Origin: Utricularia gibba
Lineage: Eukaryota > Streptophyta > Magnoliopsida > Lamiales > Lentibulariaceae
Length of the DNA: 64,000 bases
Direction of reading: 5' to 3'
Assembly: GCA_002189035.1 (NCBI GenBank)
Contig: NEEC01000009.1
Location: 1,054,001-1,118,000, forward strand
Of this stretch, positions 34,136 through 63,808 are shown one piece after another (the first letter of the stretch is position 1; each line of letters starts with the position of its first letter). A program made the position numbers and the translations under genes. Under the pieces are notes generated by a model. That model did not search any database and was not told the DNA's origin. It saw only the letters and a list, made by a program, of their open reading frames with translations.

Positions 34136-37100
34136 ATGCTTAATTTTAATGGGAAATGGGTCGGGAGGATTTCGTCCAGCTTGCGTTACAAGGTTTGTTT
34201 TTTTCTCCTTCTGCTGATGCTCAATGTGAAACCTTCTCCATGGCTTGTTGTGAAAGTTTTTTAAACGTGTCTGAGCTCTTGTTATGGGTCTTATAATTTT
34301 TTGTGAAGTGCATTACATACTGTTGCTACATTCGCTTTACATTATTGGTGCAAGTTATTGTTTCGGAAGTGCTGGTAAACTTGAATGATCAATTTTTGTG
34401 GAATTTTGTGATGATTCCATGTGACTTTCAGTGGAGCATCGTCAAATTTAATTTTTTTCTGGTTAGATTGAGGTCGCTCTTGCTGGAACAAATTTATGCT
34501 CTTGCATGCATCATTTATGCTGTCATGATGGCGCATTTGGTCTATATATCTTCTGACTATTAAATTTTCAACAGCTCTTTAGACAAAAGGCTTTCTCCAG
34601 CAGCAGACCCTGTGATGTTGGACAGCCAACGTCTAGTACTCATCCGCATGTACTCTACTGGATGGACAATCTAATATATTATTTCCTCTATTCATTGGTT
34701 TTCCGTCCCTTAATTCATCCTGAACTACCTGTTTTACTGATATTCTAGTTGCTGAAAGAAGGGGAGGTTACTCCTGGTTTAAGCAGTGATGAGTACATAT
34801 GGAGGAGGAAAAAGTTGTTGGAACTTCTTCCTGAGAACGCTTTGGCAATAGTTGCATCAGCACCGGTTAAAATGATGACAGATGTTGTCCCATATAATTA
34901 TCGTCAAGATGCCGACTACCTCTACATCACTGGTTGCCAACAGCCTGGTGGTATTGCAGTTTTAGGTCACCACTGTGGGTTATGTATGTTCATGCCTGAG
35001 GCGAGCCCCTATGTAAGCAAAATATTTTTCAGGAAGTTCTTGAAGCGTTGTTAGTCAAAAGGACTAAATCACTTTTCAAGGAGTGAATGTAGAATCAATT
35101 TCTTTTGACATGTAATATGGTAAAATTCCAAAAAATTTTCAGGATGTTATATGGCAAGGTGTGGTTGCTGGTGTTGATGTTGCTCTAAATACATTCATGG
35201 CTGACGAAGCATATCCAAGAAGGTCACTGAATAAGGTCAATGCAAGATTACACTGCTAATTCGGTACCAGCGGTATCATTTTGTACATCATATAACCATG
35301 TCAGGGGTATCTTAAGCTTCATGTGCCATTTTGGTAAAGGTGCCTGCCTTTTTTCAACATGAGTTTATGATTTTCTAGGACGTTGCAGCATCTGGAATAT
35401 TGGTTCTCTAGAAATAATATATCCCGCTTTGTCATTGGAATATGCTAAAACTAAATGATTTACCTACATACTTTCTTATTGGTTTTAAAGCAACGAATAT
35501 GCTGTAGCCTTGAATGTCGACTCTTGAGTAGTTTTCATGGCGTTTTTTTCAGATACTATCAAGGATGATAGAAAGCTCCTCTCAAATATTCCATAATTTG
35601 AATTCATCATGTGATAGCTATATGAACTTGGAGGCATTTCAGAAAGCAGCCAGTGCTGGAAATGTTAAGGATTTTTCAGTGTATAGTCACGAAGCAAGAT
35701 GGATAAAGTCAGAAGCCGAGCTTAATTTGATAAGGAGTTCTGCATCTATAGCCTGTCAGGTTTGTTCTCAAGCCTTTTCTTTGTCTTCATTCTATGCATA
35801 ATTTGGATCTTTTGTGCTAATTAGGCTCTTCTGCAAACAATGTTGCTTTCAAAATCATTTCCTAATGAAGGTATCCTGGCAGCTAAGTTCGAATATGAAT
35901 GCAAAATGAGGGTGTGCAGAGAATGGCGTAAGTGTTCCATTCATGAGAATTTTATTCTAAATATATTAATGCAGCTGCAACAAATGCACTGGGTTCTTGA
36001 TTTCAGAAAACAATACGAAATGATGGAGCAAACAATTGATTAAATAATTTTAAAACCAGTAATCTAGTTTTTGGGTAGCTTAGCCTTGTGCTGAACATTC
36101 TAAAGCTTTTAATGTACACTACATTTGATGTTGCTGCCCAGCAAGGCGTCGATTGTTATGTGTAGGAATTTTATTGGATGTTTTTTGCACAGCTTCAATC
36201 CTGTAGTTGGTGGGGGACCTAATAGCAGCGTCATACATTATTCAAGGAATGATCAGAGGGTTGAGTCTTTTCTAGCATCACCCTTTTGTTTTCAAATCAA
36301 ATGTTATCTTCTGAGTACAGATTATCAATGGAAATTATGTCATTATTTATATTTCTTTACAGATACAGGATGGCGACCTTGTTCTAATGGATGTTGGCTG
36401 TGAGCTTCATGGTTATGTTAGCGATCTCACTCGTACTTGGCCACCATGTGGTAGATTTTCATCACTTCAGGTATGGAGATGTCATGCTCTACAAAAGGCT
36501 GATATTTGTAGCTGATAGCATGGAAGATAAACGATACTGTTTCTGCACTCATGAATAACATTGTGGAATCAGTAGCTCCTCCCAGACGTTCCATTTCATT
36601 TTGCAATAATGTTTCAGGAAGAACTCTATTGTCTCGTGTTGGAAACCAACGAAGAATGCTTGAAGCTTTGCAGACCCGGCACAAGTATCCGAGAAATACA
36701 CAACTACTCGGTAACCTCAGAACCATAAAATTCTTTCTCTGATGGAGTGTTTTGGCTGCATTTGCTCTGCCCCTCATGGTCTTTTGGATCATTATGTGTT
36801 GTCTTTTGATAATATCATTGGAAGGTTGGGAAGCTACAGAAGGGATTCAAAGAACTTGGATTGTTAAGAAGCGATCCCCACAGTTACAATTTGCTTAATC
36901 CTACCAATATAGGTTACTTAAAATCTTTTATCTTTTTTCACACATTCTGCTTGGTTGATCAGACTCCTGTACTGAATCTCGTAGTTCAGGTCACTTTCTT
37001 GGAATGGATGTTCATGACTGTTCAAAGATTGGCTATGATCGCCCTCTCAGGCCCGGTGTGGTAAGTGTATTTCCTCACTATGCAAGGGCTCTCATGAATC

Positions 37101-37583
37101 CACTGCATTCCTCCCTAGTTTCTTCATATGCTGTATTTCGTGAGCAGGTATTAACCATCGAACCAGGCGTCTACATCCCTCTAAATTATGATGTTCCAGA
37201 AAGGTACTTCTAACTCCTTGGTAGCACAGTGAGTCAGTCAGTCCCCAAACAACGTGATTCTCTGTCTTTTCTTCTCCACGCTTTCTTCATGCTAAGAAGT
37301 AACTAGCTTCTAAGCATGATGGACCAAGTACTGAAATGAAATGCAGGTATCGAGGCCTAGGAATAAGGATAGAAGATGAAGTTCTGATCACTGAATCCGG
37401 ATACGAGGTACATTTCTTCCTTTCGTTACTCAAAACCTTCTGAACTTCCTACCCATGAGGCAGTTTTCCCTCCCACTCTAGGTGCTCACTGCTTCAGTTC
37501 CAAAGTCACCAAAGCACCTCGAGTCACTGCTCACCAATCTGAGCACCGGGGCACAGCATTGCACCCCCGGAGCAGCCCCCTGA
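34136..37583 (+). CDS. ICP55: Intermediate-cleaving aminopeptidase ICP55, with one-base frame break
   Basis: Metallo-aminopeptidase of the Xaa-Pro (M24B) family that trims one residue from mitochondrial preproteins after MPP cleavage. Fourteen exons: 34136-34192, 34575-34649, 34749-35012, 35143-35235, 35553-35759, 35825-35927, 36193-36259, 36363-36470, 36618-36710, 36825-36912, 36990-37060, 37148-37203, 37347-37407, 37482-37583. The N-terminus is a mitochondrial-like presequence. Core motifs: EGEVTPGLSSDEYIWRRK, DVVPYNYRQDADYLYITGC, metal-site region LVLMDVGCELHGYVSDLTRT, GHFLGMDVHD and TIEPGVYIP. In exon 6 the run GGG at 35910-35912 is one base short of what the family sequence (RGxQRMAFNPV) requires; with it the protein would be 481 residues. 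The exon 6/7 junction phase also demands the extra base. Confidence 0.93.
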
Positions 37584-38626
37584 AACGAATCCATCCAGTG
37601 AGGAGTAGAGGCAAGGTAGTTCTTCTTCATTTCTCTTGTAGTTCCCATTTCCATTGAAACTGAGATCCCCTCCATTTTAATGTCGACTCCGAAGTTCTTC
37701 AACACTACAAGATGCATACTTTTTCGAAATCTCTGGTACCCGCGGCAGCCCAGACGGCCCCCATGCCGTGGGGCTACATGGGTGGCGCCTCACAGGCGAC
37801 ACAGTCGGTGGTTTCTGACGGTGGTGTCGCCGGTTTCGCGCGGAGTCAGACCACGGGATGGTACCGTGTCTGCCCAACATCTCTGCGGTCTGGCCATTTG
37901 TAGGACACCGGGACGCTGCAGCTGATCTCCTCGTTTCTCGCGTGTCCAGTAACTGCACGCCACGTGCGCGTAAAATAAAAAAAGGTCTAAAATCAGTCCT
38001 AAACATTTATAATAATTATTATAAATGATTTATTTGCTTTTATTAAAAGACTGAATTAAACTTTTGCATCTCAAAATTAATATCTATTATACAAATACAA
38101 AAAAACTGTAAATCATTTATATATGCTATTCATGATTTAATAACATCTTCAAATTGCGATTTAATTGTTCATTTAAAAAAAATCAAAATGATCAACTTAG
38201 ACATTGATTTTTCAATGGGATTTTGGACCAGACCATGTGAGTATGTATTATTAAATTGGGTCTTTTAATTGTATGATAAAAATGAGTATCGTATACATAA
38301 AATTTTGATCTTAATGTTGAGAAATGACCACATACTATAATATCATTTCGGTTTCTGTCTCGTGTGTCGGGCCAGTTAGGGGTTTCTACGTGATTGGATG
38401 GTCGGTGTCGTTTCGCTGTTTGGATTAGTGAGAATTGGTACTTGAAGTGTGCACGTTTTAAGGAAGCTGCACTGCACCCGATGAGGTCCATCGCACGTGA
38501 AAGAACGTTCTTAGGAAATGACCACAAACGAGCACAAAAAAATGTCTACTTTTTTTCGTCTATATATCACATGGCTTGCTCTGCGAATCCGGCCCATTCA
38601 GCTTCGTGTTCGTCTTCCCCGGCAAG
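37584..38626. other. Intergenic between ICP55 and the DUF538 gene
   Basis: A GC-rich patch at 37730-37960, then AT-rich DNA. TATATATC at 38561-38568 is the likely TATA box of the DUF538 gene, 66 bases before its ATG. No other gene seen. Confidence 0.5.
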
Positions 38627-39091
38627 ATGTCTCAGATTACCGACGAGATAAGGGCTGCCGCGGAGGTCTACTCCGGCGATGCCCTGTGCCAGGAGAAGTC
38701 GAAGGCTCTGCTCACCGAAATGGGCCTTCCGAACGGGCTCCTCCCGATGAAGGACATGGAGGAAGCTGGACACGTCAAGGAGACCGGATTCGTGTGGCTC
38801 ATTCAGAAGCAGAAGTCGCAGCACAAGTTCGAGAAGATCGGGAAACTTGTCCAGTACGCTAAAGAGGTTACCGGAGTTATCGAGAAAGGTAAGATCAAGA
38901 AGCTCACCGGCGTTAAGAGCAAGGAGCTTCTCATTTGGGCTAATCTCAGTGAAATCGAAGTGAGCGACTCGTCTCCAGATAAAATCATCTTCAGAACCCC
39001 CGCCGGGTTGTTCCGCACCTTTCCCGTCGACGCGTTCCGCCTCGAGGGGGAGACTGTCGCCGCTGCTGAGGAAGTCCTCGTGAAGTCGTGA
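38627..39091 (+). CDS. DUF538 family protein
   Basis: Intronless, 154 residues from the ATG at 38627 (MSQITDEIRAAAEVYSGD). An upstream in-frame ATG at 38576 lies almost on the TATA box and is not used. Matches the plant DUF538 pattern: EKSKALLTEMGLPNGLLPMK near the N-terminus, then GFVWLIQKQKSQHKFEKIGK and FRTFPVDAF near the end. The family is stress-responsive with a proposed chlorophyll- or lipid-binding fold; the function is not settled. Only 184 bases separate its stop from the next gene. Confidence 0.88.
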   Translation: MSQITDEIRAAAEVYSGDALCQEKSKALLTEMGLPNGLLPMKDMEEAGHVKETGFVWLIQKQKSQHKFEKIGKLVQYAKEVTGVIEKGKIKKLTGVKSKELLIWANLSEIEVSDSSPDKIIFRTPAGLFRTFPVDAFRLEGETVAAAEEVLVKS

Positions 39092-39275
39092 AGTGGAAAT
39101 CCGCCGGCGGCCGCCCAAGTCGAGAATTATGTATCAATAAGACCTGAGTAGAATGCACTGTGATTTTACAGTGACATCACGTTTTCCCCTTGAACCCTAA
39201 TCTCTCTAATTCTGCACACATATTTAACCCATTTGGAAGACGAAAAAGCTTAAAAGACTATTCAGGAATTTGAAT

Positions 39276-41405
39276 ATGAAGTTGGCGAAGACGAGTGCTT
39301 TCTCAGCTGTAAAAGCTTCGAGGATAACGATAACTTGCGGATCTCTGGAGAATCTCTTGTTGCAATGCCACAGTGGCAGCCTGTTCGATCAAACTCTTTG
39401 CCAGGTAATCGTCACCGGACTATTCAAAGATGTTTACGCGGCCAGCCGGATTCTTAAGTTTTCCGCCGATTCACCTTTCGTTCACGCCGACTACTCTCGT
39501 AAGATCTTCTTCAACATCGAGAACCGAAATGGGTTCATTTGGAACACCATGTTTCGAGCAGTTCTGCGAGAAAATGGGATTGAGGAATCCATTTCTCTGT
39601 ACAGATTGATGTTAAGAGATAGCTCCGAGTGCGTAGATAACTATACTTTTCCGATTTTGCTTCAGGGTTGTGCTCTTGGAATGGCTTATTTTAAGGGAAC
39701 GGAGTTGCATGGGCATGTGGTGAAACTGGGATTTGAGAGCGATGTTTATGTTGTCAACAATTTGATCAATATGTATTCCGTGTGTGGAAGTGTAGGTTAT
39801 GCTCGGAAGTTGTTCGATGAAAGTCTTGTACTGGATTCTGTTTCTTGGAATTCAATGCTGGCTGGTTATGTATCAGGAGGGCATGTTGAAGAGGCGAAAT
39901 TGCTCTACGCTCAGATGCCGGTAAAGAATGTGATTGCATCGAATTCGTTGATCGTCCTTCTCGGTAAAGCTGGAAAGATGAACGAAGCGCAGCAGTTGTT
40001 CAGTGAGATGGAGGAGAAAGATTTGGTTTCTTGGACAGCCATGATATCAGGCTACGAGCAGAACGCAATGTACGAGTCTTCTTTGGCAGTATTTTTCAGC
40101 ATGCGTAAGAATGGAATCCGAGTAGACGAAGTTGTAATTGTGTCTGTGCTGTCTGTTTGCTCAAATTTGCAGAGCTTCTACACTGGGAAGCTGGTTCATT
40201 GTTTGGTCATCAAAGTTGGTCTGGAACACTACGTAAATCTGGACAATGCTCTGATTCACATGTATTCCACATGTGGGGACGTTCTTGCTGCAGAGCAGCT
40301 GTTCAGAAATTGTAGTTACTTGGACTTGATATCTTGGAACTCCATGGTATTTGGATATGCCAAGAGCGGTTTGATTGACAAGGCTAGAGATCTGTTTCAT
40401 GCAATGCCTGAGAAGGACATCGTATCTTGGGGCTCCATGATTTCCGGTTACTGTCAGCATGGGATGTTTTCAGAGACGCTGGAGTTGTTTCAGGATATGC
40501 AGTTACAAGGCATTCATCCAGATGAAACCATACTTGTCAGCGTCATCTCAGCATGTGCTGAACTTTCAGCTTTAGGTCGAGGCAAGTGGATAGATGCATA
40601 CATAAGGAAGAACAAGGTGAAGGTGAACCCAATTCTCGGCACCACTCTCATTGACATGTATATGAAGTGCGGGAGTGTGGGTAATGCTATGGAGGTTTTC
40701 TGGGGGATGGAGGAAAGGGGGGTTTCCTCTTGGAACGCTGTAATTCTTGGGCTGGCCATGAATGGGCACGTTGAAGCATCACTGGGCATGTTTGAGCAGA
40801 TGAAGGAATATGGTGCTGTTCCTAATGAGATAACCTTCGTAGCAGTTCTCGGGTCTTGCAGGCACAACGGCCTGGTCAAGGAGGGGCTGAAGTACTTCGA
40901 TTTGATGAGTGAATACAACATAAAACCGAATCTCAAGCACTACGGATGTGTTGTTGATCTTCTCGGGCGGAGGGGGCTGCTCAAGGAGGCGGAGGAACTA
41001 ATCGAGAGTATGCCTCTGGAGCCAGACGAAATGACACTGGGCGCTCTCCTTGGAGCTTGCACACAGCATGGTGATAGGGAAATCGGAGAAAGAATAGGCA
41101 GGAAGCTGATACAACTTCGGCCTGAGAACGATGGATTCCATGTGATGCTGTCCAACATCTATGCTTCACACGGACGATGGGCTGATGTCCGGGAGATCAG
41201 AGGAAACATGATGAGACAAGGTGTTGTTAAAACTCCAGGATGCAGCATACTTGAAGAAAATGGTGTTTTTCATGAATTTCTTTCCGGAGGCCAATCTCAT
41301 CCTCAAATTCAGGAAATAGAGATGATGCTCCACCAAATTTACCGGTGTTCCAAGGACACGCCGGTTACAGATAAACTCTTGCCATTCTCCGAGGATGATT
41401 CATGA
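39276..41405 (+). CDS. PLS-class pentatricopeptide repeat protein, E subgroup
   Basis: Organelle RNA-binding protein, intronless, 709 residues from the ATG at 39276. Repeated P/L/S motifs are clear (for example DVYVNNLINMYSVCGSVGYA-like, KNVIASNSLIVLLGKAGKM, KDLVSWTAMISGYEQNAMYE, DLISWNSMVFGYAKSGLIDK, KDIVSWGSMISGYCQHGMF). The C-terminus has an E domain (PGCSILEENGVFHEFLSGG) and ends without DYW. E-class members usually work in C-to-U editing with a separate deaminase. The frame is intact despite several G runs, including a six-base run at about 40719. The N-terminus may be an organelle presequence, but it is not strongly typical. Confidence 0.92.
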   Translation: MKLAKTSAFSAVKASRITITCGSLENLLLQCHSGSLFDQTLCQVIVTGLFKDVYAASRILKFSADSPFVHADYSRKIFFNIENRNGFIWNTMFRAVLRENGIEESISLYRLMLRDSSECVDNYTFPILLQGCALGMAYFKGTELHGHVVKLGFESDVYVVNNLINMYSVCGSVGYARKLFDESLVLDSVSWNSMLAGYVSGGHVEEAKLLYAQMPVKNVIASNSLIVLLGKAGKMNEAQQLFSEMEEKDLVSWTAMISGYEQNAMYESSLAVFFSMRKNGIRVDEVVIVSVLSVCSNLQSFYTGKLVHCLVIKVGLEHYVNLDNALIHMYSTCGDVLAAEQLFRNCSYLDLISWNSMVFGYAKSGLIDKARDLFHAMPEKDIVSWGSMISGYCQHGMFSETLELFQDMQLQGIHPDETILVSVISACAELSALGRGKWIDAYIRKNKVKVNPILGTTLIDMYMKCGSVGNAMEVFWGMEERGVSSWNAVILGLAMNGHVEASLGMFEQMKEYGAVPNEITFVAVLGSCRHNGLVKEGLKYFDLMSEYNIKPNLKHYGCVVDLLGRRGLLKEAEELIESMPLEPDEMTLGALLGACTQHGDREIGERIGRKLIQLRPENDGFHVMLSNIYASHGRWADVREIRGNMMRQGVVKTPGCSILEENGVFHEFLSGGQSHPQIQEIEMMLHQIYRCSKDTPVTDKLLPFSEDDS

Positions 41406-43012: not shown

Positions 43013-44193
43013 ATGGAGACCTTCTTGTTCACCTCTGAGTCCGTGAACGAGGGACACCCCGACAAGCTCTGTGATCAGATCTCTGATGCAGTGCTTGATG
43101 CTTGCCTGGAACAGGACCCCGAAAGTAAGGTTGCATGTGAGACTTGCACCAAGACCAACCTTGTCATGGTTTTTGGTGAGATCACAACTAAGGCCAAGAT
43201 CGATTATGAGAAAATCGTGAGAGACACATGCCGTGGCATCGGATTTACGTCTGATGATGTTGGTCTCGATGCTGATAAATGCAAGGTTCTTGTCAACATT
43301 GAGCAGCAGAGCCCTGATATCGCTCAAGGTGTCCATGGTCACTTGACTAAGCGTCCAGAGGAGATTGGAGCTGGTGATCAAGGCCACATGTTTGGCTACG
43401 CCACTGATGAAACCCCGGAGTACATGCCCCTGAGCCATGTGCTTGCTACCAAATTAGGCGCCCGTCTCACTGAAGTGCGCAAGAATGGAACTTGCGCCTG
43501 GTTGAGGCCTGATGGGAAAACCCAGGTGACTGTGGAGTACTACAATGACAATGGAGCCATGGTTCCTGTTCGAGTCCACACAATCTTGATCTCAACTCAG
43601 CATGATGAGACCGTCACCAACGATGAGATCGCCAGGGATCTGAAAGAGCATGTCATCAAGCCCGTCATCCCGGAGAAATACCTTGATGAGAAAACAATCT
43701 TCCACCTCAACCCCTCCGGCCGGTTTGTCATTGGTGGACCTCATGGTGATGCAGGTCTCACCGGCCGGAAGATCATTATTGACACCTATGGTGGCTGGGT
43801 GCCCACGGTGGCGGTGCTTTCTCAGGCAAGGACCCTACTAAGGTTGACCGCAGTGGTGCATACATCGTCAGACAAGCTGCAAAGAGCATTGTAGCCAATG
43901 GCCTTGCTCGTCGTTGCATCGTTCAAGTGTCGTATGCCATTGGTGTGCCTGAGCCATTATCTGTTTTTGTTGACACCTACAAAACAGGGAAGATCCCAGA
44001 TAAGGAGATTCTGAAGATTGTCAAGGAAAACTTCGATTTTCGGCCTGGTATGATCTCAATCAACCTCGATCTGAAGAGGGGCGGCAATTCAAGGTTCCTG
44101 AAGACAGCAGCCTATGGCCATTTTGGTAGGGATGACCCCGACTTCACCTGGGAGATAGTTAAGCCTCTCAAATGGGAGAACCCCCAGGACTGA
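43013..44193 (+). CDS. SAMS: S-adenosylmethionine synthase, with one-base frame break
   Basis: Makes S-adenosylmethionine from methionine and ATP in the cytosol; homo-oligomer needing Mg2+ and K+. Single coding exon of 1181 bases; one more base gives 1182, exactly the usual 393 residues. Motifs: [20 protein letters not shown] near the N-terminus, the methionine/ATP signature [15 protein letters not shown], and [20 protein letters not shown]. At 43797-43799 the codons for [11 protein letters not shown] need GGGG but only GGG is present, so the frame shifts just before the P-loop-like [12 protein letters not shown]. The downstream frame then runs intact through [15 protein letters not shown] and [18 protein letters not shown] to the stop. 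A consensus error is the simplest explanation. Confidence 0.96.
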
Positions 44194-47452: not shown

Positions 47453-49347
47453 ATGGAGCTGATCCATCACTTTTTTGAACTCCAGCGCTCATTTCAGCGT
47501 AACAAAGTGGTGGAGAATGACGCCCCTTCGATCGAGGTGGCGGATGCTGGGAAACAGAGTGAGGATGATTCTCGCGATGACAAGGACTTGCGAGGTTCGA
47601 TTATGAGGGAGTTGCAAGATCTGGCTATCAAGAAGTCTGAAACTCAGACAGCCGATCAAGGAGTGAGTGCTGACGGCGTTTGGGGTTGGGATGATGATCC
47701 TAATGGGTGCAGAGGTGAAAATTATGGATACCAAAATGAGGGACGGTTGATAATCAGTGGAATGAGGGGGCGGGTGATAACCAGTGGAATGAGGGGGCGG
47801 GTGATAACCAGTGGAATGAGGTAAATACACCAAACGAATCTGGAGATCATGAATATAATGGAGAAGGAACCACATATCCGGTCAGGGAGGGCGCCCAGAA
47901 TTGCGCATTTTATATGAAGGCAGGGACTTGTAAATTTGGGTCGAGTTGCAGGTTTAATCATCCACCCAGAAAGAATCAGGTCCCTCCCTGTCAATCTAAA
48001 CCTTCATTTTACTCAAAAATGGAACAGAAACTTTACCCTGTCAATTTTTATGATTCTTCAGTTTGCTAATGAAGGGCGAAGGTACCGAGATAATCCGGAG
48101 AAGACAGGGGAAAAAGAGCTGTGCAAGGTTCTTCATTTCCCCCTCTAGATCGTGATATGTTTTTCGATTTGTCAAGCTGAATGTGTTTGCTGGAATCCTG
48201 AGATTTCCAAACATTTTCTTGCACTGTGTATATACTGAATTCTGCTGTTCCAGATTATAATTGCATACCTCCTTTTGTTATACATTGTCCTTTTTGCAGT
48301 TCTTCTCCAGGACAGGCTGGTGCAAACATGGGGAAGGATGCAGATACTCTCATGGTTCTGATAAAAGTGTTGCGCCACAGTCACAGATTACTGAGTTGAA
48401 CTCCTCTGGATATCCCATTCGCCCAGTTATAACCCTTTTCCGTTTCGCTAAGATTTTTCCAAGCGCCTGTGTGTGTTTCTTAACTGTTTTTTTTTATTAC
48501 CATTATCCTCAGATAGAAGCAGAGTGTGCATACTATATGAGTACTGGTTCATGCAAGTTTGGGATGAACTGCAAGTTCGATCATCCTGAGCTTGCCGCAG
48601 GAGCAAGAGGTTCCTCAGCATCCAGCAATAGCGCCCCTCAAGCAGCCCGCGTGAAACCAGAACTGGGAAGTAAGAAAGCCTTTGTTTGTTCCTTGATCAC
48701 CCATTGCTTATGTTTTTTAGCATGGCCATATTAATTAGAACTCCCCGTTTCTCCACCTGACCAAAACCAAGGTCAAACTAGTTCATCATCAGAGTGCACT
48801 GAGAAGAAGGTAATGTTTGCAAGATTCCATATGTATCCTAATGCATGAAGTTATCCCTACATTTAACTGATAAGCTGTTTTATCCCAATGCAGAAGCAAC
48901 ATAATACGTCAGTTGAGGAGTACCCTGAGCGTCCGGGTGAACCAGAGTGCAGCTTCTTCGTTAAAACGGGAGACTGCAAGTTCAAGTCTGCTTGCAAGTT
49001 TCATCATCCCAAGAACCTAACCTACAAGCCCAAGACGAAGAGGGATGCACCTTCCAGCAGTAACACCACCTTCAGGCCCCAGATGAATGCAGCAGGTGCA
49101 GATGCTCCTGCCCTCAACGACAAAGGCCTCCCCATTCGACCCGTAAGTTTGTTGCTGCCTCGTACATCCATAGCTAATACAAGAAACAGTTCTGTAAGTA
49201 CATAACATTCACATTCAAATCCGTTTCTGGTTCACTTTGCAGGGTCAACCGGTCTGCACACACTACTACCGGCATGGCATCTGCAAGTACGGGCTGAGCT
49301 GCACCTACGACCATTCCTTAACCTCCGACACCGCCTCCGGAGAATGA
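47453..49347 (+). CDS. Five-finger CCCH zinc-finger protein, with one-base frame break
   Basis: RNA- or DNA-binding protein of the plant ZFN1-like CCCH group. Exons 47453-47979, 48062-48127, 48300-48425, 48513-48669, 48772-48809, 48894-49142 and 49243-49347; with one added base the protein is 422 residues. Five CCCH fingers: [84 protein letters not shown] and [27 protein letters not shown] and GLPIRP linkers are typical of the group. The frame from the ATG stops inside a 27-base tandem repeat; one extra G in the GGG at 47740-47742 restores a frame in which the repeat encodes GAGDNQWNE units and runs into the first finger. Confidence 0.92.
47743..47820 (+). repeat. 27-base coding tandem repeat (GAGDNQWNE)
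   Basis: Three consecutive units of GATAACCAGTGGAATGAG followed by GGGGCGGGT; the first is slightly diverged (GTVDNQWNE). Being a multiple of three, copy number changes would alter protein length without shifting frame. Confidence 0.85.
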
Positions 49348-49841: not shown

Positions 49842-50968
49842 ATGGCTGCAATCGCCAGGGTGGTTTTGTGGTTGCTCTTCCTTGTAGCGTCGTCTCCGGC
49901 GGCCGCCGAGCACAGGGGCGGCCTTTTAAGAAAGTTTACGCCTTCGGCGACTCGTATACAGATACCGGAAACACACGTACCTCCTCCGGTCCTCTCGTTT
50001 TCAACTACGTATCCAACCCTCCTTATGGACTTACGTACTTCCATCGCCCCACCAATCGGTACTCCGATGGCCGTATCGTCGTCGACTTCGTAGCCGAGCA
50101 CCTCTCCCTTCCCCTGCTGCCGCCGTACAGGGACTCCAGCGCCGATAGGGCGCACGGCATTTGTTTTGCCGTCGCCGGAGCCACCGCCATCAGGCACGGT
50201 TATTTTCTAGAGAATAATATTACCTTCAGCCTTGTTCCCGTGTCACTCGAAACGCAGCTCATGTGGTTCAATAGAACCTTGAAGAATTCCGATGGCTGTG
50301 ACGACTCAGTCACCACCCCTGAGGCATGTGAAGAGTCGCTCGGTGATGCTTTCATTTGGATCGGCGAAATGGGAGCCAATGACTACACTTCGGCCATCGG
50401 ATCTTCCATCGGAACTGCAACTATAAGATCCCTTGCTGTAGACAGCGTCGGCAGCTTCATACAGGCGCTGATCAACAAGGGAGCAAGGTACATAGCGGTT
50501 CAGGGTCTGCCGCCGGTGGGCTGCGTCACGTACTCTTTCTCCATCGCTTCGCCGGAGGACAGGGACGAGATGGGCTGCGTGGCGTCGGCGAACCGGAGGA
50601 TCAGGGTTCACAACGCCGCCACGAAGGCGTCTATCGTGGAGCTGAGAAGGCGGAATCCGGGAACCATGATCGTGTACGTCGACTTCTACAATGCCCACCT
50701 CGCTGTCCTGAAGAAGAGCAAGGGCTTCGGGTTCAAAGAGATGTATAAAGCCTGTTGCGGGTACGGCGGCGGGTACAACTTCGATGTTCTTAACGTCTGC
50801 GGGACGCCGTCGTCCACCGCCTGCTCCGCCCCGTCGGAATACATCAACTGGGATGGCGCACATTTTACAGAGGCCATGAACAGAGTACTAGCGGAATCGT
50901 TTCTCAACGGCTCCTTCTCAAGCCCGCGGTTCTCGGTTCTGATGGCGGAGAAACTCCGGTCCGGCTGA
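49842..50968 (+). CDS. GDSL esterase/lipase, with one-base frame break
   Basis: Secreted SGNH-family esterase. From the ATG at 49842 the sequence encodes a clear signal peptide (MAAIARVVLWLLFLVASSPA), then leaves frame at the GGGG run 49915-49918. One more G joins AEHRG to RPFKKVYAFGDSYTDTGNT and gives 375 residues in one exon. Catalytic blocks: block I FGDSYTDTGN (Ser), GICFAVAGATA, block III GEMGANDYT (Asn), and block V NWDGAHFTEAMNR (Asp and His). The frame that starts upstream at 49736 lacks a signal peptide and is not the real start. Family members act on cutin-like esters, acetylated glycans or lipids; substrate unknown. Confidence 0.93.
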
Positions 50969-51390
50969 TCCTGAGGAAAACAACATTCATGCTCCAAGTT
51001 GCAGAGTCAGCGTATTTCTGCTGTACCTGTTAGTCGTGTCAATAAATGTGCAGCTGTTGGAAGTTGCGATCCTTTTATGTCTTCATAAATGTTGGGGTGG
51101 TGGATTGCGATCTCTGGTTGCAAGTGTCGGCTTCTCAGTTTTTGATCATCATTCTTTCTTCAATTTCTCCGAGCAACTACGATCAATACGCATTTATTCG
51201 CTTCCAGCATTAGATGAACTAAACCTGCAACATCCACCAACTCGGTCTCCCCATTTATTAACGCAGCAAAAACGCGGAGACAACAGGGGACCAATCAAGA
51301 AAAGTCCTACCCCAAACTGTATTAATTTGAAGAGGATTCCCATGCAAAACAAGGCAGCATCGGAGACGGCGACATTCACTCATGTGGGTT
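50969..51390. other. 3' flanks between GDSL gene and broken RPS10 copy
   Basis: 422 bases; no supported gene. Confidence 0.5.
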
Positions 51391-52353
51391 AAGCTCGGGG
51401 TGGGGTGCACCGCCAAAGCTGCCACCAGATCCTCAACAGAAGCCAGGAGGGCTGCAAGCGCCGCGCAAATGCACAGTCTAGATTATAAAAGGGTATACAC
51501 AAGGGTACAAGTGAAAGACTAAGGTTCATATGATCCAACTTTCAACCATGTAAATCCCGAATGCGTAAACTTACCCTGAACGCAGGTTGGTGCGGCATCC
51601 ATCCCGAGGCCTGTCACCAAGAATCTTGGAGGTCCACTGTGAAAGAAATGAAAACCACTGTATGTAACATTAATGTTGGGAATCGCCACATGGAACACTA
51701 GATATTCGAGCAGAACGGAGGACTGTAGATAAACGAAAAATAAGTGGAAGAACAAACTATTACCATGGACGATCCTCAGGGGGTGAGGTCCATCCATTGG
51801 ACACCCGAGATGCCTGGAAAACCTTATCAGTCAGTAACGGGAACAATTTCCCATGGAAGGTTAAGGTATGTCCGGAGAAACTTGATTCCATCATTGGTTA
51901 AGTACCAATAGTAATGCATCCAAGGAAAACTCTCGCATGGATACTCCTTAAACATGAAGCTCTGCATCAGTGAATAGCTTGCAGATTTGGCACATCGATA
52001 TCTGGACGCTTCGCCAGGTCAAAGTCCTTCTTGCCATAGCAAACGCCCTCTAAAGTTACACAACCGCATATCAAATTTTCACAAGGTAAGATGGAGCAAA
52101 CACATACAACATTCCAAACCCGCACATTCATCATTACACAGCGTCGTAACAGAAAATCTCACCTGGAATGAGATACCTGGAGATCCCTCTCCTGTTCTTC
52201 TCAGCGATGATTTGAACCAATTAAAATTTCAGAAAATCAGCACACATCTCGTAAACGCGGAAAACGACAGGAAGCAAACGCAACGAAGAATTCACCATCG
52301 TTGCGGCGGACGCAAACGGAGAAGTCGCCGGAGAGAACCCCGATTTCCGACGA
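51391..52353 (-). pseudogene. RPS10 pseudogene (tandem copy with introns)
   Basis: Decayed tandem duplicate of the RPS10 gene at 52691-53740, still showing its exon-intron layout. The start exon with ATG (about 52297-52299) survives, but the next acceptor has changed from CAG to CAA at about 52214-52216, next to the IIAEKNRRGISRYL exon. The main exon reads [20 protein letters not shown] then breaks after NLQAIH because bases are missing relative to [11 protein letters not shown], and a second in-frame stop follows in the [10 protein letters not shown] region. The fourth exon has lost about 80 bases. The last exon is diverged but keeps its stop. Introns prove segmental rather than retro-duplication. 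Confidence 0.88.
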
Positions 52354-52690
52354 CGTGGCCTTGCCTATAGTAGATCAGCCCGCTATGGACCCAAAACAGG
52401 CCCACATGCTCGTAAAACAATAAAACGCACGCATCCGTTTTTAACGGGCTGAATATGCCATCGGCCCAATTTATTTTTATTACGATAATAAAAATAAAAT
52501 ACTTTATTTTTGATATAATAATTTAAAAAGTTAATCACGTGACGTAGTGCAAAACGAACTTGGCAGCCAATCAAGCGAAGCATCAAAAAAGGTCCACGAA
52601 GTGTCTTAAGTAGAAAACAATTCAATTCGAAATGCCCATCCAAAGGAAGCACAGCATCCGAGAAGACGGCATGCACTGAGATTTATGAAG
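52354..52690. other. Spacer between the two RPS10 copies
   Basis: Upstream sequence of the broken copy retains GGCCCA-type site II motifs at about 52399 and 52462, as expected for a duplicated ribosomal promoter. Otherwise AT-rich. Confidence 0.5.
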
Positions 52691-53740: not shown

Positions 53741-53808
53741 GGTGATAGCGGCAAACGGAGAAGTCGCCGGCGAAAGACGCTTGCTTCAAAACTTCAGCAA
53801 ACCCTAAT

Positions 53809-53954: not shown

Positions 53955-54181
53955 TGTTTTCTTACCTGTCATAGGCCCTGAATGATAAAAATAAAATAAT
54001 AATTATTATTATTTGGACGAGGTCAGGTAAAAAAATTTGGCTTTTGTAGCTATCGAACATTTGACTTTTTCCGCCATCTTTTTGTAGTCAATGGTTCATG
54101 TGGAAGACACCTCATGCTTGATTCTGCGTGTCCAAAATGACTGTAGAAATCTCCAGTGTAAAACGAATATCACCTGCGATT

Positions 54182-54188
54182 TATATAG
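54182..54188 (+). promoter_or_regulatory. TATA box of the NB-LRR gene
   Basis: TATATAG 53 bases upstream of the ATG at 54241; position fits a core promoter. Confidence 0.5.
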
Positions 54189-54240
54189 TCGACCGTAACA
54201 ACACTTGTGGGTGTTTCTTCCAGTGAGAGAAATCGGGCAT

Positions 54241-56838
54241 ATGGCGTACGCTGCTGTTGTTTCCTTGGCCCAGAAACTGGAGCAGATAAACGAAGATCCC
54301 AATCATCTGCTCCACAGCCAGGCTCAGAATCAGCCCTTACTCCGGCTCCATGAAAATGTTGTCGAGTTGCAAGCTATCATGGGGAGTTCCCCGGAAAAAA
54401 CTTGTGGGGTGGAAGCCCGGATCGCCCGTTGCGCGAATGAGGCAGAAGATGTCATCGACGGCTGCTTTTTCGATTATTGCTGGGAGACTCTGGAGCGAGA
54501 CCTGCACAAGTTGAAAAATGAAACGGATGCTATTCTGGAGGAGGTCATTAGGGTGAAAGGGGTGAACCTGAGGAGGTTGCGCAGGCGAATGAATGGCGTC
54601 ATCATGCCGGAGTTTCGCGGGTCATCTCAGTGGTAAACACCCCATCTTGGGATTCGATGGAGATATAAGAATGCTGCAAGAAAGAATCTATGGAGGGTCA
54701 TCTAATCTCCAAGTTATCCCAATTGTTGGAATGGGGCTCTGGTAAGACTACACTAGCTGCAGCTTTATATGAAAATAGGATGAGGAAGCGGCATTTTGAT
54801 GTCTGTGCTTGGATCACTGTTTCCCAAAGATATAACCTCCGGAGAGCACTTGCCCAACTGCTGGGTGACATCACAGGAACTGCACCGGAAGGAAATGAAA
54901 CAATCAATAATGAATCTCTAGGGGTAAGCATATACCAGGAATTGAAGCTACGGAGGTACTTGATAGTAATAGATGATATATGGAGTACAAAATTCTGGGA
55001 TGATATCAAAAGGATATTACCAGATGATGGTAATAGGAGCAGGATTTTATTGACTACCAGGCTTGAAGATATTGCTGCTTGTACTGTTGAGTCGAAAAGC
55101 TGTATTCACGAAATTCCCTTGCTGGACTTGGAGAGGAGTTGGTGTTTACTGAAGATGAAAGTTTTTGGTGAAAACCATCATCCTGTTGAACTGGAAGACA
55201 TTGGTAAAACGATAGTAAAGTACTGTGGAGGGTTACCTCTTGCTATTATAGTCGTCTCCGGGCTTCTGTTGAGTGTGGATCCAACCGAAGATTCATGGAG
55301 AAGGATAGCTGATAATGTGGGTGCAAGCATAACATCAAACAGTGGGCAAATTCTGGATATCCTGCGTTTAAGTTACAATCACTTACCTCATCACTTGAAG
55401 CCATGTTTCTTGCACATTGGAATCTTCCCTGAAGACAACAACATTCGTGTTTCTCGGCTCATCAGGCTGTGGGTGGCAGAGGGTTTCTGAAACCATTCAG
55501 ATCAAAAAGCTTAGAAGAGACAGCCTATCTGTACTTGGAGGATCTTGTTAGAAGAAACCTCATCTTTGTCTCACATAGAAGGTCGACTGGGCTGATCAGG
55601 GTGTGCCGGATTCATGACTTTGTGAGACATTTGTGCGTGAAAACAGCTCAACAAGAGCAGTTTCTGCATCATCTGAACGACAGCAATGAGGTCTCTCCAC
55701 ATGGATCAAGAATCCACGTCGCCTCAGTGTGTGCGCTGATGGTTTTGAGCATCACCCTGATTACTCTTCACTTCGAAGTATTTGGTACTTGCAGTGCCGG
55801 AGAGATATGCATGTGCCCTTGATGAGTTTCAGGTTGGTGAAAGTATTGGATGCACAAAGGATAGTGTTCAGCAGGTTCCCTATAGAAGTATGCAAGCTGT
55901 TCCATTTGAGGTACTTATCTTTCTCCCACAAGAACTCTTCGAGGTTCAAAATTCCTCCATGCATCGACAAACTTCAAAACCTTCAAGTTCTGACGATCAG
56001 CCCAACTTTCAACTTGTTTTCCTCCTCATACAGCAAACTTGTTCTTCCAATGAACATTTACAACATGCCAGAATTAAGGCATCTCAGTTTCAACGAGAAG
56101 GCTATCTTGCCTGAACCTGCATGTGAATCAAGTTCACCTCTGAAAAATCTTCAAACTCTGTATCAAATGGCAAACTTGAGGGTCTCAAAAGAGGTTCTAG
56201 AAGTGATTCCGAACTCAAAAAGCTTGGAATCTTTTACTCAGGAGATGAAGCATATTCAAGAAGCGATAGATATTACCTTGAAAACCTTGCTCACCTTTCG
56301 CATCTTGAATCCTTAAGCTTGGCATCAGAATGGGACAAATGGTTTCCGTTTTGGAGAAGATGATGCTACCCCAAGGTTTGAAAAAACTGAGTCTTACATT
56401 AACAAGAATACCGTGGACACGGATGGAAAAGTGATAGGATCATTGCCAAATCTTGAAGTGCTGAAACTGAGACAAAATGCCTGCACTGGACAGATATGGG
56501 AGACCAAAGAAGGTGATTTTACAAACCTAAAGGTGCTAGAATTGGATGATTCATTTCCAGATGTATGGATTAGTGACGACAGCAGCCATTTTCCAAGGCT
56601 TGAGAAGCTTTGCATGTACAACATTCGTAGGATGAGAGAGCTGCCCAGTTGCATTAGAGACATTGATACTTTACAGTTGATTGAAGTGGACAAAAGCAAT
56701 GCATACGTAGTTGAATGGGCTACAGAGTTGCAAGAAGAGAAACTTAGCCTTGGCAATGAACTTCTCCAGTTCCACATTCATACGTGGGCTGCATCAAATA
56801 AGTTCATGCGCAGGGTTGCCGTTCAGAGGCAATGTTGA
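54241..56838 (+). pseudogene. CC-NB-LRR immune receptor, reading frame broken several times
   Basis: Intronless resistance-type gene of the Rx/RPP13-like CC class. Ordered domains survive in pieces: CC (MAYAAVVSLAQKLEQINEDP; ANEAEDVIDGCF), NB-ARC with a P-loop (GMG.SGKTT), kinase-2 RYLIVIDDIWS, RNBS-B SRILLTTRLEDIA, GLPL (CGGLPLAII), RNBS-D CFLHIGIFPED, MHD variant (VCRIHDFVRHL), and LRRs ending near ELPSCIRDIDTLQLIEV. Frame breaks are at about 54619-54621, 54733-54736 (P-loop), 55481-55483, 55726-55733, 56210-56211, 56353-56354 and 56430-56431. Most are repaired by one or two extra G. Either a relic or a gene hit hard by homopolymer errors. Without reads I cannot tell. Confidence 0.85.
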
Positions 56839-57220
56839 TATCATACACACTGAGCTGATTCGGATGCGGAGCCGGAGGTATTATTGCATTTCTTGCAATT
56901 GAGACTGTGATACCATGAAATGTAAAATGAGGTTTGAGTTTTCAAAGATGAGGAAAAGTTTAGAATACCCTGAAAAATTCAGCTGTTATTTGCCATTATT
57001 CTTGATATGTTCCTAAAGAATAATAAGAAACTCTTCTTCATCCACTCATATCTGGAGTCACTTTTCTGTAGAGTGAAGTTTCAAGTACAAGATAAACCAG
57101 TGGCCAGTGAAATCAACTGCCAATTGCATTTAACTGGGGTTTAATAACTATGATGATCAACATTAGGCAGACACACTGCTGGGAAAAACAATGGCTCATA
57201 TACAACAATGAATCCGAACA
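56839..57220. other. 3' flanks of the NB-LRR and DYW-PPR genes
   Basis: 382 bases between convergent genes; nothing else seen. Confidence 0.5.
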
Positions 57221-59320
57221 TCACCAGTAATCCCCGCAGGAACAAGCACCCTCCTTGAAGCGGTGAAACCGGCTACCATCTCGGAAGATGATTTCACGTC
57301 GGCAAACCAAAGAAATCAGTTTTATGGCATCATGGCAGTCACCACAGATCCTGTGGTTCTGCACAAGCTGCAACGGTGTTGATGTCGGAGTACTGATAAG
57401 CCCAAATGCAATAGCCAATTTCTCACTATGCAGCGCTGGCCTGGAGTGTTCATCTTCATCCACATCAGGAAGCATATTTCCTACCTGGGAGATATTAGCG
57501 TACCCCAGTTCCTGGATTTGCACCATGACGTCATTTAGTTTGCCATATATAGCCTTCGTTTCAGGATGAGATTTGTCATTGGTGAAGAAGCAGTGCTGTT
57601 CCTTCTTTATTTCTATCCACGTACAAGCTTGTGACATCCTCAGGCCCTTCCTGCTCAATGTATGGAGAACTCTGGCTGCTTCGTCTAACTTACCAGCAGC
57701 GTTGTAGATATTCAATAGCACAACGTAGTTTGAGAGTTTCTCAGGTTCCATCCCATAAAGCTTCTCAGCTGCAAGTTTTCCAAGCACAAAGTTCTTATGT
57801 ATTCTACATGCTGTCAGCAATGCTGCCCACATATTTACTGTTGCCTCAAATGGAGCCTCTTGTATCAGTGCAAAGGCTTCATCAAGAAGCCCTTCTCGGC
57901 CCAACAGCTCCACCATGCATGTGTAGTGCATTGCCCGAGGTTTTATGCTGTACTTCTGACTCATGGATTTGAATATTTCCCACCCCTGGTCAGATAACCT
58001 AGAATTGCAACAGGCAGACAAAACAGCAAGAAATGTAACATGGCTTGGGGCTACACGCTCACGAATCATTCGTTCAAATAATTCAACTGCTTCCATTCCA
58101 CGACTACGTGTGCCGTATCCAAATATTAGCGAATTCCAGGCCAATACATTTTTCTTAGGCATCTTATCAAAAACATTTCGAGCTTCTTCAATCCTTCCCC
58201 ATTTGCTATAAAAAATCTACAAGAGCTGTGTTGGCAACAACGTCCGAAACAAAACCATTTCGCACTAAACCGGCATGAGCTTGTTTTCCATGCTCCAGTG
58301 ATCCTAATCTTGTGCATACACGTAATATTATCGAGTATGTGAAATGGTCCATTTCGACGCCAAGGCCCTGCATTTCATAGTACATGCTCAACGCCTCCTC
58401 ACTGTACCCATGAAGCGCATAACCAGCAATAATACTATTCCATCCTACTGTAGTTTTCTCTGGCATCAAATCGAAAACTAGCTTTGCACTCGCAAGGCTC
58501 CCGCATTTGCTGTACATATCAATCAATGAACAAGATACAAAGATGTCATGACTCACATCCATCTTTAGAGCAAACGCATGCAACTGCATTCCCTGGGATA
58601 TAAGGGATAAACCACTCGATGCTTTTACTGTCAACGCAACAGTTCTCGACCCAATTTCCAGGTCATGCTCCAGCATATTCAAAAACAATCTAAAAGCCTC
58701 AAAAAAGTCACCACAATCAACAAGACCCCGATCATAGTATTCCAAGAAACGAAGTTCCTCTCAGGCATATTATCGAACAGTTGGCGGGCATCGTTCATCA
58801 TGCCGCACTTCACATGCATACCCAATGCTTTGTTCATCATATAAATATCTAGATCAATTCCAGAATCAATCATATGATAGAAAACTCTCTTGACAGCTCT
58901 AGGAGATCTTAAGCCAATGCAAGCAGTCATCAATGCATCATAGGTACCAATGTTGATATCCACATTTCTCTCACATTCCAAAATCTCAAACACATCAAGA
59001 GCCTCCTTATACCTTCCGCTAGCAATCAGCTTCGCAATCTGCCCACAAAAATCTGTCCTTCTTACACGGGTTTCGTCAAAACAATCCCCTGCATCCTTCT
59101 CCTCCGTCCTCAGCACTTTCAGCAATGGACGCGGTTTCAAGCCCTGGTCCAAAAGAGAACACCAACATTGAGCTAAATGGGCTCTAGACTTGCTCTTTCT
59201 GAGTGAAAAATCCCCAAAAATGGGAAGTCTTGGGATGAAATTGATCCTCTGGAATTTCGCAAACGAATACGCAAATCTGTAGATACTCTGGATTTCCTCC
59301 AGTGCCAACGAGATATCCAT
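57221..59320 (-). CDS. PLS-class PPR protein with E and DYW domains, two frame breaks
   Basis: Organelle RNA-editing factor similar, from memory, to Arabidopsis At5g50390. True start is the ATG at 59320 (MDISLALEEIQSIYRFAYSF); 699 residues if two breaks are repaired. Break 1: CCCC at 58726-58729 on the plus strand is one base short, separating FVSWNTMIG from GLVDCGDFFEAFRLFL. Break 2: the A run at 58210-58215 has one base too many, separating ANTALVDF from YSKWGRIEEARNVFDKMP. Between breaks the PPR motifs are perfect. The C-terminus has E motifs (CTWIEIKKEQHCFF) and a full DYW cytidine-deaminase domain: HSEKLAIAFGL (HxE), CGDCHDAIK (CxxC) and terminal CSCGDYW. Confidence 0.93.
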
Positions 59321-60007
59321 TTTTCTTCTCAAAGAAACGAATCAAGCTAAACACGGAATTCCAATACGATCATAACACAAAAGGAACCCCGACCCAAAAG
59401 ATACAAGATACAAAGCAATGGCGTTTATCCTCTTCAAAGAAACATGGATCATCATCCCAAGAGCAGCAGCAGAAGAATAAGAGATGAAAGAGAACTTTGA
59501 AAGATCCGCCCAGCAGTTCAACTAACCGGCATTTCCTAGGCAAAGCTCGCAGTGTTGAACTCTTGTGTGCTCGACAAATAACTTCTGAACTTTTCAATTT
59601 GACCTCTTTAAAATCTCATATTTCAGTTTGACCCCTATAAAAAGAACATGATTTTTTTAAATAGGTAATTATTATCATGTACCTCAAAATGCTTCAAAAT
59701 GATGGATTCAACATTATTTTAGATTTTCTAAAAATTAAAAACCATAAACTTTGACAAGAATTTTATTTTATAATAAATAAAATTAAAAAAATCTCATCTA
59801 AATCGAAAAATGAATATAGCATGTTTGTAAAACATTCTTCCACACAAAGGGAGATACAGTGTGTCCTCTACAGAAAGAGGCAGTTACCCTCTACATCTGA
59901 ACCGAACTACAAAACCTAATGGAGCAGCACAGCAGGACATTGACATGGATCCTGCTTCTGTATACAGTAAGCAATAAGCAGCAGCAGCAACGCCACTCTG
60001 ATGTGTT
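59321..60007. other. Intergenic between DYW-PPR and reticulon-like gene
   Basis: 687 bases; AT-rich around 59640-59820. Nothing recognisable beyond the PPR promoter. Confidence 0.5.
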
Positions 60008-60924
60008 TCAGTTGACAGAATTTGGGGTGTCTCTTCTCCTTGAGGGCATTGCTGAGCATGCATCTGCATCACTTTCCCTGGAGTTCTGGATGATCACATA
60101 CAGACAGAAAAAGCACAACCCTGAAACAGTATGAGAGATCTGAGGCACTGGCTTCCATACAAGAACCTCGCGCAAACCAGTGGTAGAAAAGAACACAAAC
60201 ATTAGGCATAAGATCCAAACAAGAAGAGCATGTGCACTTGAATCTTTGATCGCCATTGTGCTAATTCTCAGGTTCTCGATTGTCAGTTACAGCAAGAATC
60301 AATATGGGTTGGGTTTGGGATTAAGCACGGATCAAGACAGCCTTGTGGCCTCACCAGCACATAATCAGAAGAGTATGCAGAGGGAATACACTAACCGATG
60401 TAGGAAACGGTGACACCTGAGAGTGCTCTCCCGATAACGGAAAGGGCATAAAGGCAGCACACAACCTGCGACCCAGAATGAGCATTTATTCAAACACTTG
60501 GGCTACAAAGGGGATGGTTACATCTCGATCACAGCGCATAATTTCATGGCTTGGATTGCTCAATCCGCATAAATTACCTTAAAGAAAAGACGCTTATCGG
60601 AGCCAGTAGCGGCCACGCGAAGAACCGATTCGGCGGCGCCGATGGTGTTGGCGAGGCAGGCAATAATGGAGGTGGCTGTGTTCTGCGAGATCTGCCAGTG
60701 CAAGGGTCAACGGGGACGTCGACGGTCATATGACGAAACAGCAGCCCCAGGATGGCGAGAGAACACAGGAAAACGATGAACACGTCGGCTAAAAGCGATA
60801 CGACACTGGAATTTCGGAAGGCGCAGTGGTAGTACACCAGCGTTCCACTCATCATCGCTAGAAATGCTCCAAGTCCCATCGCGGAACCAACCCTCGCAAC
60901 TTCCCTGTCCCACACCTCCGTCGC
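60008..60924 (-). CDS. Reticulon-like membrane protein, 5' exon unresolved, one-base frame break
   Basis: Exons 60578-60924, 60396-60465 and 60008-60120 form the visible coding part. The first begins after a TTTTAG acceptor and reads ATEVWDREVARVGSAMGLGA; it has no ATG, so a start exon must lie to the right and was not found. Hydrophobic hairpins (FLAMMSGTLVYYHCAF, LLADVFIVFLCSLAILGLLF) and the third-exon segment VVCCLYALSVIGRALSGVT fit a short reticulon-type ER-shaping protein. GGG at 60704-60706 (plus strand) must be GGGG to pass from MTVDVPVDP into LHWQISQNTATSII and ANTIGAAESVLRVAA; the restored frame runs exactly to the donor. Family assignment is from overall pattern, not a diagnostic motif. 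Confidence 0.7.
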
Positions 60925-61284
60925 CTAAAATCGCCTTCGATTAGGGTTCCCGATCACGGAAATTGCTGCAACTGGCAAACCGCTGGCGCCTGGGAATCTT
61001 AAACCGCTTCACCGAACTTGACGATCATATTAATGTCGGAGCTGTCAATCCGCCGGCGGCTACCATGAAATGATGTATCGCATTTCCTTCGTGAATCAGA
61101 GATTTCTGTTGTCTTTAAAAAAAAAATTGCGAGCATCTGGTTCGGAAACACAAATCTGGAAGCTAATAAATAGTTCTGAGGGAAGAAATGCATCGCAATC
61201 ATCAAGGAAACAGTGCACGATGCGAAGGATGGTGAAGAGTCTGCTGCATTGCATCCAGATTTCAATGCCGTTTCCGGGCTGCGA
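60925..61284. other. Region upstream of the reticulon-like gene
   Basis: 360 bases that should hold its missing start exon and promoter plus the RPT1 3' flank. A short ATG frame at about 61002-61029 on the minus strand (MIVKFGEAV) ends in a stop and does not solve the start. Confidence 0.4.
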
Positions 61285-63808
61285 TCAGTTGTAAACCATA
61301 TATTTCGGAGTGGCACTGAACTTCTGGTATCCCTTGATCACCTTATTCACAGCATCCAGGAAATCCTTCTCCGTCACCGTCTTCCTTCGTGCTCGAATCG
61401 CAAACATTCCGGCCTCCGTGCACACGCTTCGTATGTCGGCGCCTGAAAGAAGATCGCACAGCTTACTATAATAAGTTGCAAGGTTCCAATGCGTAGATAC
61501 AAAAGAAGTTCATTCATCAACACTATTAGGATCAACAGGCCGGTGGCTATACCGGTTGAGTTGGGGCAAAGGCGAGCAAGAAGCTCGAAACGAATATCCC
61601 GTTCACAGTTCATTGTCCGCGTGTGGATCTTGAAAATCTGCGTCCTGCTTTCCAGATCAGGCAGCCCAAATTCGACTTTGCGATCAAGCCGACCCGGGCG
61701 TAAAAGTGCAGGATCCAGAGTGTCGGGTCTGGAAAGCAAGATCAAAAAGGTATAACCCCAAACAGCAATGGCGGCTAAAGAAGCCGAACCAGACATGGCT
61801 ACAAGTATAAAAAAGGTGTTATCTTGTGAACTGAAAAGAGAACCTGTTGGTGGCCATAAGAACCTTGATGTTCCCACGAGCATCGAAACCATCAAGCTGG
61901 TTTACAATCTCCAGCATGGTACGCTGGACTTCATTGTCTCCACCAACTCCATCATCAAAACGTGCACCTCCGATGGCATCCACTTCATCAAAGAACACAA
62001 TGCAAGCTTTCTTGGAGCGTGCCATCTGCCCAAGAGAATAAGGTTAAACATCAGTGCCTCAGTACTCCATATAATCTTTAGATCAGCAGGATTTGGAATG
62101 TACGGAACATGAGGAGGAGGAAGACGATGGCTTGACCTGAAACAGTTCGCGAACCATCCTAGCTCCCTCCCCAACATATTTCTGCACAAGTTCACTTCCA
62201 ATGACACGAATGAAGCACGCATCCGTACGGTTGGCCACAGCTCTGGCCAACAGGGTTTTACCAGTACCAGGAGGACCATAGCAGAGGACGCCCTTTGGAG
62301 GATCAATGCCCAGCTTCACAAACTTTTCAGGATGAAGCATGGGCAACTCAACCACCTGCATTGTTGAAATTGAGATAACTATTCATGAATCAACAGAAAA
62401 GTCATTGCAAAAAATTTATATGAAAACTATCATACCTCTCGCATCTTTTCAATCTGCTCCTTACAGCCACCCACATCGTTATAAGTTACATCAGGCTTTT
62501 CCTCTACTGTCATCATTGTAACACTTGGATCAATTTTCGGAGGCAAAGGAATCTGAATCTGGTATTTATTTCGGTCAACACTGGAAAAAAGAAAGAGACA
62601 GCAGTAATGTTAAACACCATTTAGGATGCACAAAGAAGCTAGCTTTTGAAAATCAGTGTCGAACAACAAATTTTATTATCCATGGAGTAAAACAAGACAG
62701 GAAAATCCCCAGCTTACCCAACTCTCATGCCTTCTTCAATATCAGTGGGAGAAACCCGATCTCCTAATCCAACAACAAACTGCAACAATGTTGCAAATAA
62801 ATATATCAAATCACTAAGTGAGAATGAACGTTCTGGAACCATGCTGGTGTTAAGTGAGCAAAATAGAGAGGAAATTGTCTCAAGATCGACAAGATCGAAA
62901 TACAAAAGGTAACAAAAAACACACCTTGGCAATTTGCTTAACATTAATAAGATACTTAGCATCATCAGTGTTTGGGTTAATTATCTTCGTGCACCTAGCA
63001 ACCTACAAGGAGAAAAACACCATTAACAAGTATAAAAATTGGTAGCTGTAGATTGCTCTTATTAGGGAAAGACTAACCTGAAGAGGCTGTTCTTCCTGCA
63101 TCATTTGCTTATCGGATACAAGATCCCACTGGCTGGGTGCAGCTAAACCAGTGTCAGATTCCTTAATACCTATAAAAGCAGATGACAAACAATTATCTCA
63201 ACTACAAGAGGAAAGAATCAGTTGCAATGCAGACCTGCGCGCAAAGCCCGTTCAACAAAACACATAAAAATGCCCCCTCATGGAATGATAAGCAATTAAG
63301 TGCACTAAAAATAATCAAGTCGTGCATCAAACAAAGAAGACTGGAGCCAGCATACTAACCACATAAATCATTGACCTTTTTCGCCATCTCCTTGATTTCC
63401 TTTTCCACTTTCTTTATGCTTGCGGAATAAGGCCCAAACCCTGAACAATCCATGAGAAAAAAATTAAATCTTCAAACTATGGTTTCGAAACTAAAAACCT
63501 AAGACGAAGACTGTCATGTCACTAGAAAAAAAATTTCATTTTCCCCAAGCCCCAAATGATGAACGCCTAATCAATCTACTCATCATCATACAATGAGGAT
63601 GAAGCTCAACACACCCAAAATCAAAAAGAATATGAGAATCCCGTGAAAGCGGGCGAAGTTCCAACTTCCCCCTCCTCCCAAAACCAGAATTTTAAACAAA
63701 ATAAACACAGAAGAATAATACATAAGTCTTAAGCAGAGCAATATCGTCTTCATCAAGCGGCCTCGGATTCTTCTCGTCCTTAATGTTATCCTCCGGCTCC
63801 GGTGCCAT
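61285..63808 (-). CDS. RPT1: 26S proteasome regulatory ATPase RPT1, with one-base frame break
   Basis: AAA+ ATPase of the proteasome base ring that unfolds ubiquitinated substrates. Exons 63722-63808, 63360-63440, 63078-63169, 62925-63002, 62718-62779, 62436-62580, 62137-62355, 61844-62025, 61553-61728 and 61285-61442 sum to 1280 bases; one more gives 1281 and 426 residues, exactly the Arabidopsis length. Motifs: coiled N-terminus [20 protein letters not shown], Walker A GPPGTGKT, Walker [13 protein letters not shown], sensor [18 protein letters not shown] and the C-terminus ATPKYMVYN. The missing base is in exon 2: the plus-strand run GGCCC at 63431-63435 should be GGGCCC to encode GLGPYSAS. 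All other junction phases agree. Confidence 0.96.

Follow-up and report, generated by a model that had tools for sequence, protein, structure and literature searches.

Frame breaks in the genes of the window

The window analysed here is a 64,000-nucleotide stretch of Utricularia gibba DNA, corresponding to C505:1054001-1118000 of a 100.09-Mb genome in 516 contigs. It carries genes for ICP55, SAM synthase, a CCCH zinc-finger protein, a GDSL esterase, a DYW-PPR protein, a reticulon-like protein and RPT1, and in each of these the reading frame is broken once, except in the PPR gene, where it is broken twice (Table 1). All eight of these breaks had been listed in an earlier note on this DNA and all are present in the letters of the window, as the homologue, homeologue or Pfam domain resumes in another frame beyond each of them. 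The list was nevertheless incomplete, and at least three further breaks had been overlooked in an NLR gene at 54.2-56.8 kb.

Table 1. Frame breaks and broken or decayed genes in the window (positions are those of the window; C236, C2, C402 and C375 are other contigs of the genome)
Feature	Positions	Strand	Observation
ICP55 (aminopeptidase P type) exon	35910-35912	+	GGG, 1 base short of frame; GGGG in C236
SAM synthase	43797-43799	+	GGG, 1 base short; GGGG in C236 and in five paralogous alignments; lone break in a 393-aa gene
CCCH zinc-finger gene	47740-47742	+	Start and first zinc finger in separate frames; break identical in C236; C2 paralogue in a single frame
GDSL esterase	49910-49925	+	Signal peptide and domain in separate frames; letters identical in C236; C402 homeologue in a single frame
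RPS10-like tandem copy, decayed	51350-52400	-	Many indels outside runs relative to homeologue
NLR resistance-type gene	54199-56838	+	Frame broken at three or more places, some of them in G runs
DYW-PPR	58210-58215	-	T run (minus strand) 1 base long
DYW-PPR	58726-58729	-	G run (minus strand) 1 base short
Reticulon-like gene	60704-60706	-	C run (minus strand) 1 base short; two frames meet there
RPT1 exon 2	63431-63432	-	1 base short at GGG/CC relative to homeologous C375 exon

The frames of ICP55, CCCH, GDSL, the reticulon-like gene and RPT1 were read directly, and the two of ICP55 meet at the G run given in Table 1. In the SAM synthase gene, residues 3-265 of the plant protein are encoded in one frame and residues 266-395 in the next, with neither gap nor overlap, and the missing G is the only indel across the 1.18 kb of coding sequence when this is compared with the five paralogous alignments. 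Every aligned paralogue carries one extra base at this position, and as the paralogues are 393 aa long, the argument from restored length that had been made for this gene is correct. Compared with its closest paralogue (L004), the gene has a dN of 0.008 and a dS of 0.39 to the left of the break, and a dN of 0.018 and a dS of 0.49 to the right of it. Strong purifying selection acts on SAM synthase to the left and to the right of the break alike; neither the dN/dS near 1 nor the multiple disabling changes of a pseudogene were found in this gene, the one to which this comparison was applied.

The break in the GDSL gene is real, but it had been placed at GGGG 49915-49918, and the conserved PFK residues favour instead the CC at approximately 49921-49922. 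In the PPR gene, three successive frames bear PPR repeats, PPR repeats and then PPR-E-DYW. The homeologous RPT1 exon on C375 shares its splice site with the exon in the window and is one base longer. A shifted splice site was considered as the cause of the RPT1 break and rejected, because phase and acceptor are unchanged in the homeologous exon, which has the additional base.

The breaks in the NLR gene include one in the P-loop (between GMG and GSGKTT, at approximately 54732-54737) and one in the winged-helix domain (at the GGG at approximately 55484-55486), and may represent either consensus error or true decay. The decayed RPS10-like copy adjoins an intact copy at 52.7-53.8 kb, and from its indel pattern it looks like a true pseudogene, in contrast to the run-length breaks elsewhere in the window.

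A redundant contig covering part of the window

A second contig, C236, was found through a search for the SAM synthase family, as its copy has dN = dS = 0 to that of the window on both sides of the break. This contig is 31.5 kb long, lies in the reverse orientation and overlaps positions 28295-54263 of the window at 99.76% identity. A DNA search of the genome with the 44-64 kb part of the window missed the overlapping C236, and the lack of a match in that search is therefore not evidence of absence. Pattern searches for further copies of the break sites in the PPR and reticulon genes matched the window alone.

Over the 26 kb compared, 2 substitutions and 49 short indels separate the contigs; of the indels, 41 are of one base and most are in runs. 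The SAM synthase frame in C236 is intact and encodes 393 aa, with a longer G run at 43799, and ICP55 likewise has a longer G run, at 35912. Differences are also found in the reverse direction, as C236 is one or two bases short in a triose-phosphate-type transporter gene (29.5-30.5 kb), GDSL and RPS10, at places where the frame of the window is open. In G/C runs the contigs disagree at 0.02, 0.3, 1.1, 8.7 and 16% of runs of length 1, 2, 3, 4 and 5, respectively (runs of 4 or more against runs of 2 or fewer, P = 4e-22). The differing run lengths at ICP55 and SAM synthase, the far greater number of indels than of substitutions and the rate that climbs with run length are all as expected of homopolymer error, and consensus error in homopolymer runs, which had been proposed as the cause, is therefore directly backed by this redundant contig.

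We infer that the remaining six breaks, beyond those of ICP55 and SAM synthase, share the same cause. At the CCCH and GDSL breaks the letters are identical in both contigs, and there consensus error would be the probable cause by analogy and from the intact paralogues. Several of the breaks sit in runs of just two or three letters, and runs that short have a lower error rate. It is unlikely, if somewhat less so than the other alternatives considered below, that a minority of the breaks, for which CCCH, GDSL or NLR would be the likeliest candidates, are genuine recent frameshifts among many false ones.

Spread of one-base frameshifts over the assembly

It had been suggested that the consensus is weakly polished locally, as the breaks lie in the right part of the window and the left 35 kb showed none. 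That absence holds for the coding sequence that could be checked there. It does not hold for the non-coding DNA of 28.3-35.9 kb, where the window is one base shorter than C236 at 31185, 31697, 32596, 33498 and 34458, all outside the reading frames that were checked. These five indels in 7.6 kb compare with ten in the 18.4 kb of overlap to the right of 35.9 kb (P = 0.78). The run-length spectra of the left and right halves of the window show no visible difference, a comparison that is uninformative at such an error rate.

Frameshifts of the same kind were found well beyond the window. In the GRAS and DYW-PPR families, 37 well supported frameshifts are present on many contigs and 31 of them are -1; 18 of these 31 one-base-short frameshifts are in G/C runs of three or more, against 4.0 expected, and none of 2000 random draws gave a number that high. 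GRAS copies are split between frames on C244, C375, C142, C2, C1, C328, C213, C3 and others, and several of those on different contigs break where the conserved GGPP motif is encoded, at codons in which runs of 4-6 G or C occur. Approximately 15 of about 70 DYW-PPR genes have shortened frames, and frameshift-aware alignment attributes these mostly to one-base deletions. On C505, the contig of the window, the GRAS gene is intact, and long open frames are seen in four of the five DYW genes. A second SAM synthase locus on this contig, L027, is also broken in a G run, at the same conserved codons as in the window copy (C505:2286339-2286363). The GRAS, DYW and SAM synthase families thus all carry such errors, on many contigs, as is expected of errors spread over the assembly.

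A real error that is confined to a weakly polished segment of 28 kb is accordingly improbable. It would account for the lack of coding breaks in the checkable left part of the window, and the probability that all eight fall to the right is about 1%, an estimate that takes the checkable coding DNA to be split about evenly between the two sides. Against it, indels that shorten the window are equally dense in 28.3-35.9 kb, and broken GRAS and DYW genes occur across many contigs, so that the suggestion of a locally weak consensus is unsupported. The clustering of coding breaks towards the right is mostly due to the chance positions of genes and runs, with a mild excess possible.

Origin of the breaks and comparison with known systems

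The listed breaks are best explained as consensus errors of a long-read-only assembly, which are spread over the whole assembly and are not true gene loss; we give this reading a probability of about 0.97. The assembled consensus would often drop, and more rarely add, a base in single-letter runs, above all those of G or C, and where such a run lies inside a coding exon the gene would appear frameshifted. In the plant itself, these genes are most probably unbroken. The published U. gibba assembly was made from PacBio reads with HGAP/Quiver and has a contig N50 of 3.4 Mb (PMC5793159), and this assembly appears to be the source of the sequence examined here. In another HGAP/Quiver assembly, indels were in large excess over substitutions before short-read correction, and lay mostly in homopolymers (PMC5964635).

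That whole-genome duplication was instead followed by the true loss of these genes as pseudogenes, with intact duplicates kept, is very improbable. Such loss could be tolerated, as SAM synthase, GDSL and RPT1 each have intact duplicates, and real decay is seen nearby in the RPS10 copy at 51.4-52.4 kb. The existence of duplicates also weakens the earlier argument that SAM synthase and RPT1, as essential genes, were unlikely to have been lost, because SAM synthase is intact at six or more loci of the genome and RPT1 has a second locus. Against pseudogenes, however, are the intact ICP55 and SAM synthase genes on the near-identical C236, the single break per gene (two in the PPR gene), the purifying selection on either side of the SAM synthase break, and the recurrence of the -1, G/C-run pattern throughout the genome.

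It is still less probable that the window and C236 represent different alleles, with heterozygous frameshifts. C236 is small and redundant, as a haplotig would be, and another pair of contigs, C316 and C412, appears to be allelic: at L097/L098 a 38-kb contig repeats part of C412, and across 9.9 kb the two differ by 12 substitutions and by several indels. From this pair, some of the small contigs are likely to be haplotigs. Heterozygous alleles would, however, be expected to have at least as many substitutions as indels, and the ratio between the window and C236 is unlike allelic variation. As only 2 substitutions accompany 49 mostly run-length indels in 26 kb, and as the breaks are reciprocal, these differences reflect consensus error and neither alleles nor pseudogene states. 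No support was found for the proposal that the cell itself bridges the frames, through programmed frameshifting or RNA editing, and its probability is negligible, as the breaks vary between genes and between the two copies of one locus, the paralogues are in a single frame at the same codons, and C236 removes the need for it in ICP55 and SAM synthase.

In consensus errors of this kind, a gene can look broken when it is not, and about one fifth of the DYW-PPR genes and roughly one third of the GRAS genes look broken in this assembly. Counts of gene loss, pseudogenes and truncated proteins will therefore be inflated unless they are checked against short reads or transcripts. Any broken gene reported from the U. 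gibba assembly is suspect, which is a warning for claims of gene loss.

The reported truncation of DCL3 was examined as a side test. Two RNase III domains are present at four loci. Dicer_dimer was detected at three of them; at the fourth, C213:2757657-2762970, the domain was sought and none was detected. A splicing-factor-like gene lies approximately 3.2 kb upstream of this locus. The C213 locus may be the reported truncated DCL3, an assignment made by elimination only. The authors of the published truncation report RNA evidence as well (PMC8333044), and the balance leans towards a true loss and not a run-length error in this case.

The listed breaks are artefacts of assembly, of a type already known, and not a biological feature. 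They resemble those of PacBio CLR assemblies with long-read-only polishing (HGAP/Quiver), which share the one-base indels in runs, the great excess of indels over substitutions and the apparent frameshifts in genes. They differ from the account of the HGAP/Quiver assembly of Plasmodium (PMC5964635), in which the emphasis is on long homopolymer tracts of an A/T-rich genome, whereas short G/C runs of 2-6 are concerned in U. gibba. The gene-fragmenting long-read errors addressed by tools such as Kastor (PMC12007338) are similar in that false premature stops and frameshifts mimic pseudogenes; that work concerns small genomes, whereas U. gibba is a plant in which whole-genome duplicates can mask errors. 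Finally, the pseudogenes of duplicated genes that follow whole-genome duplication are alike in having a broken copy beside intact homeologues, but the genes in the window differ from these in having a single break, which lies in a run and, for ICP55 and SAM synthase, is absent from the second contig.
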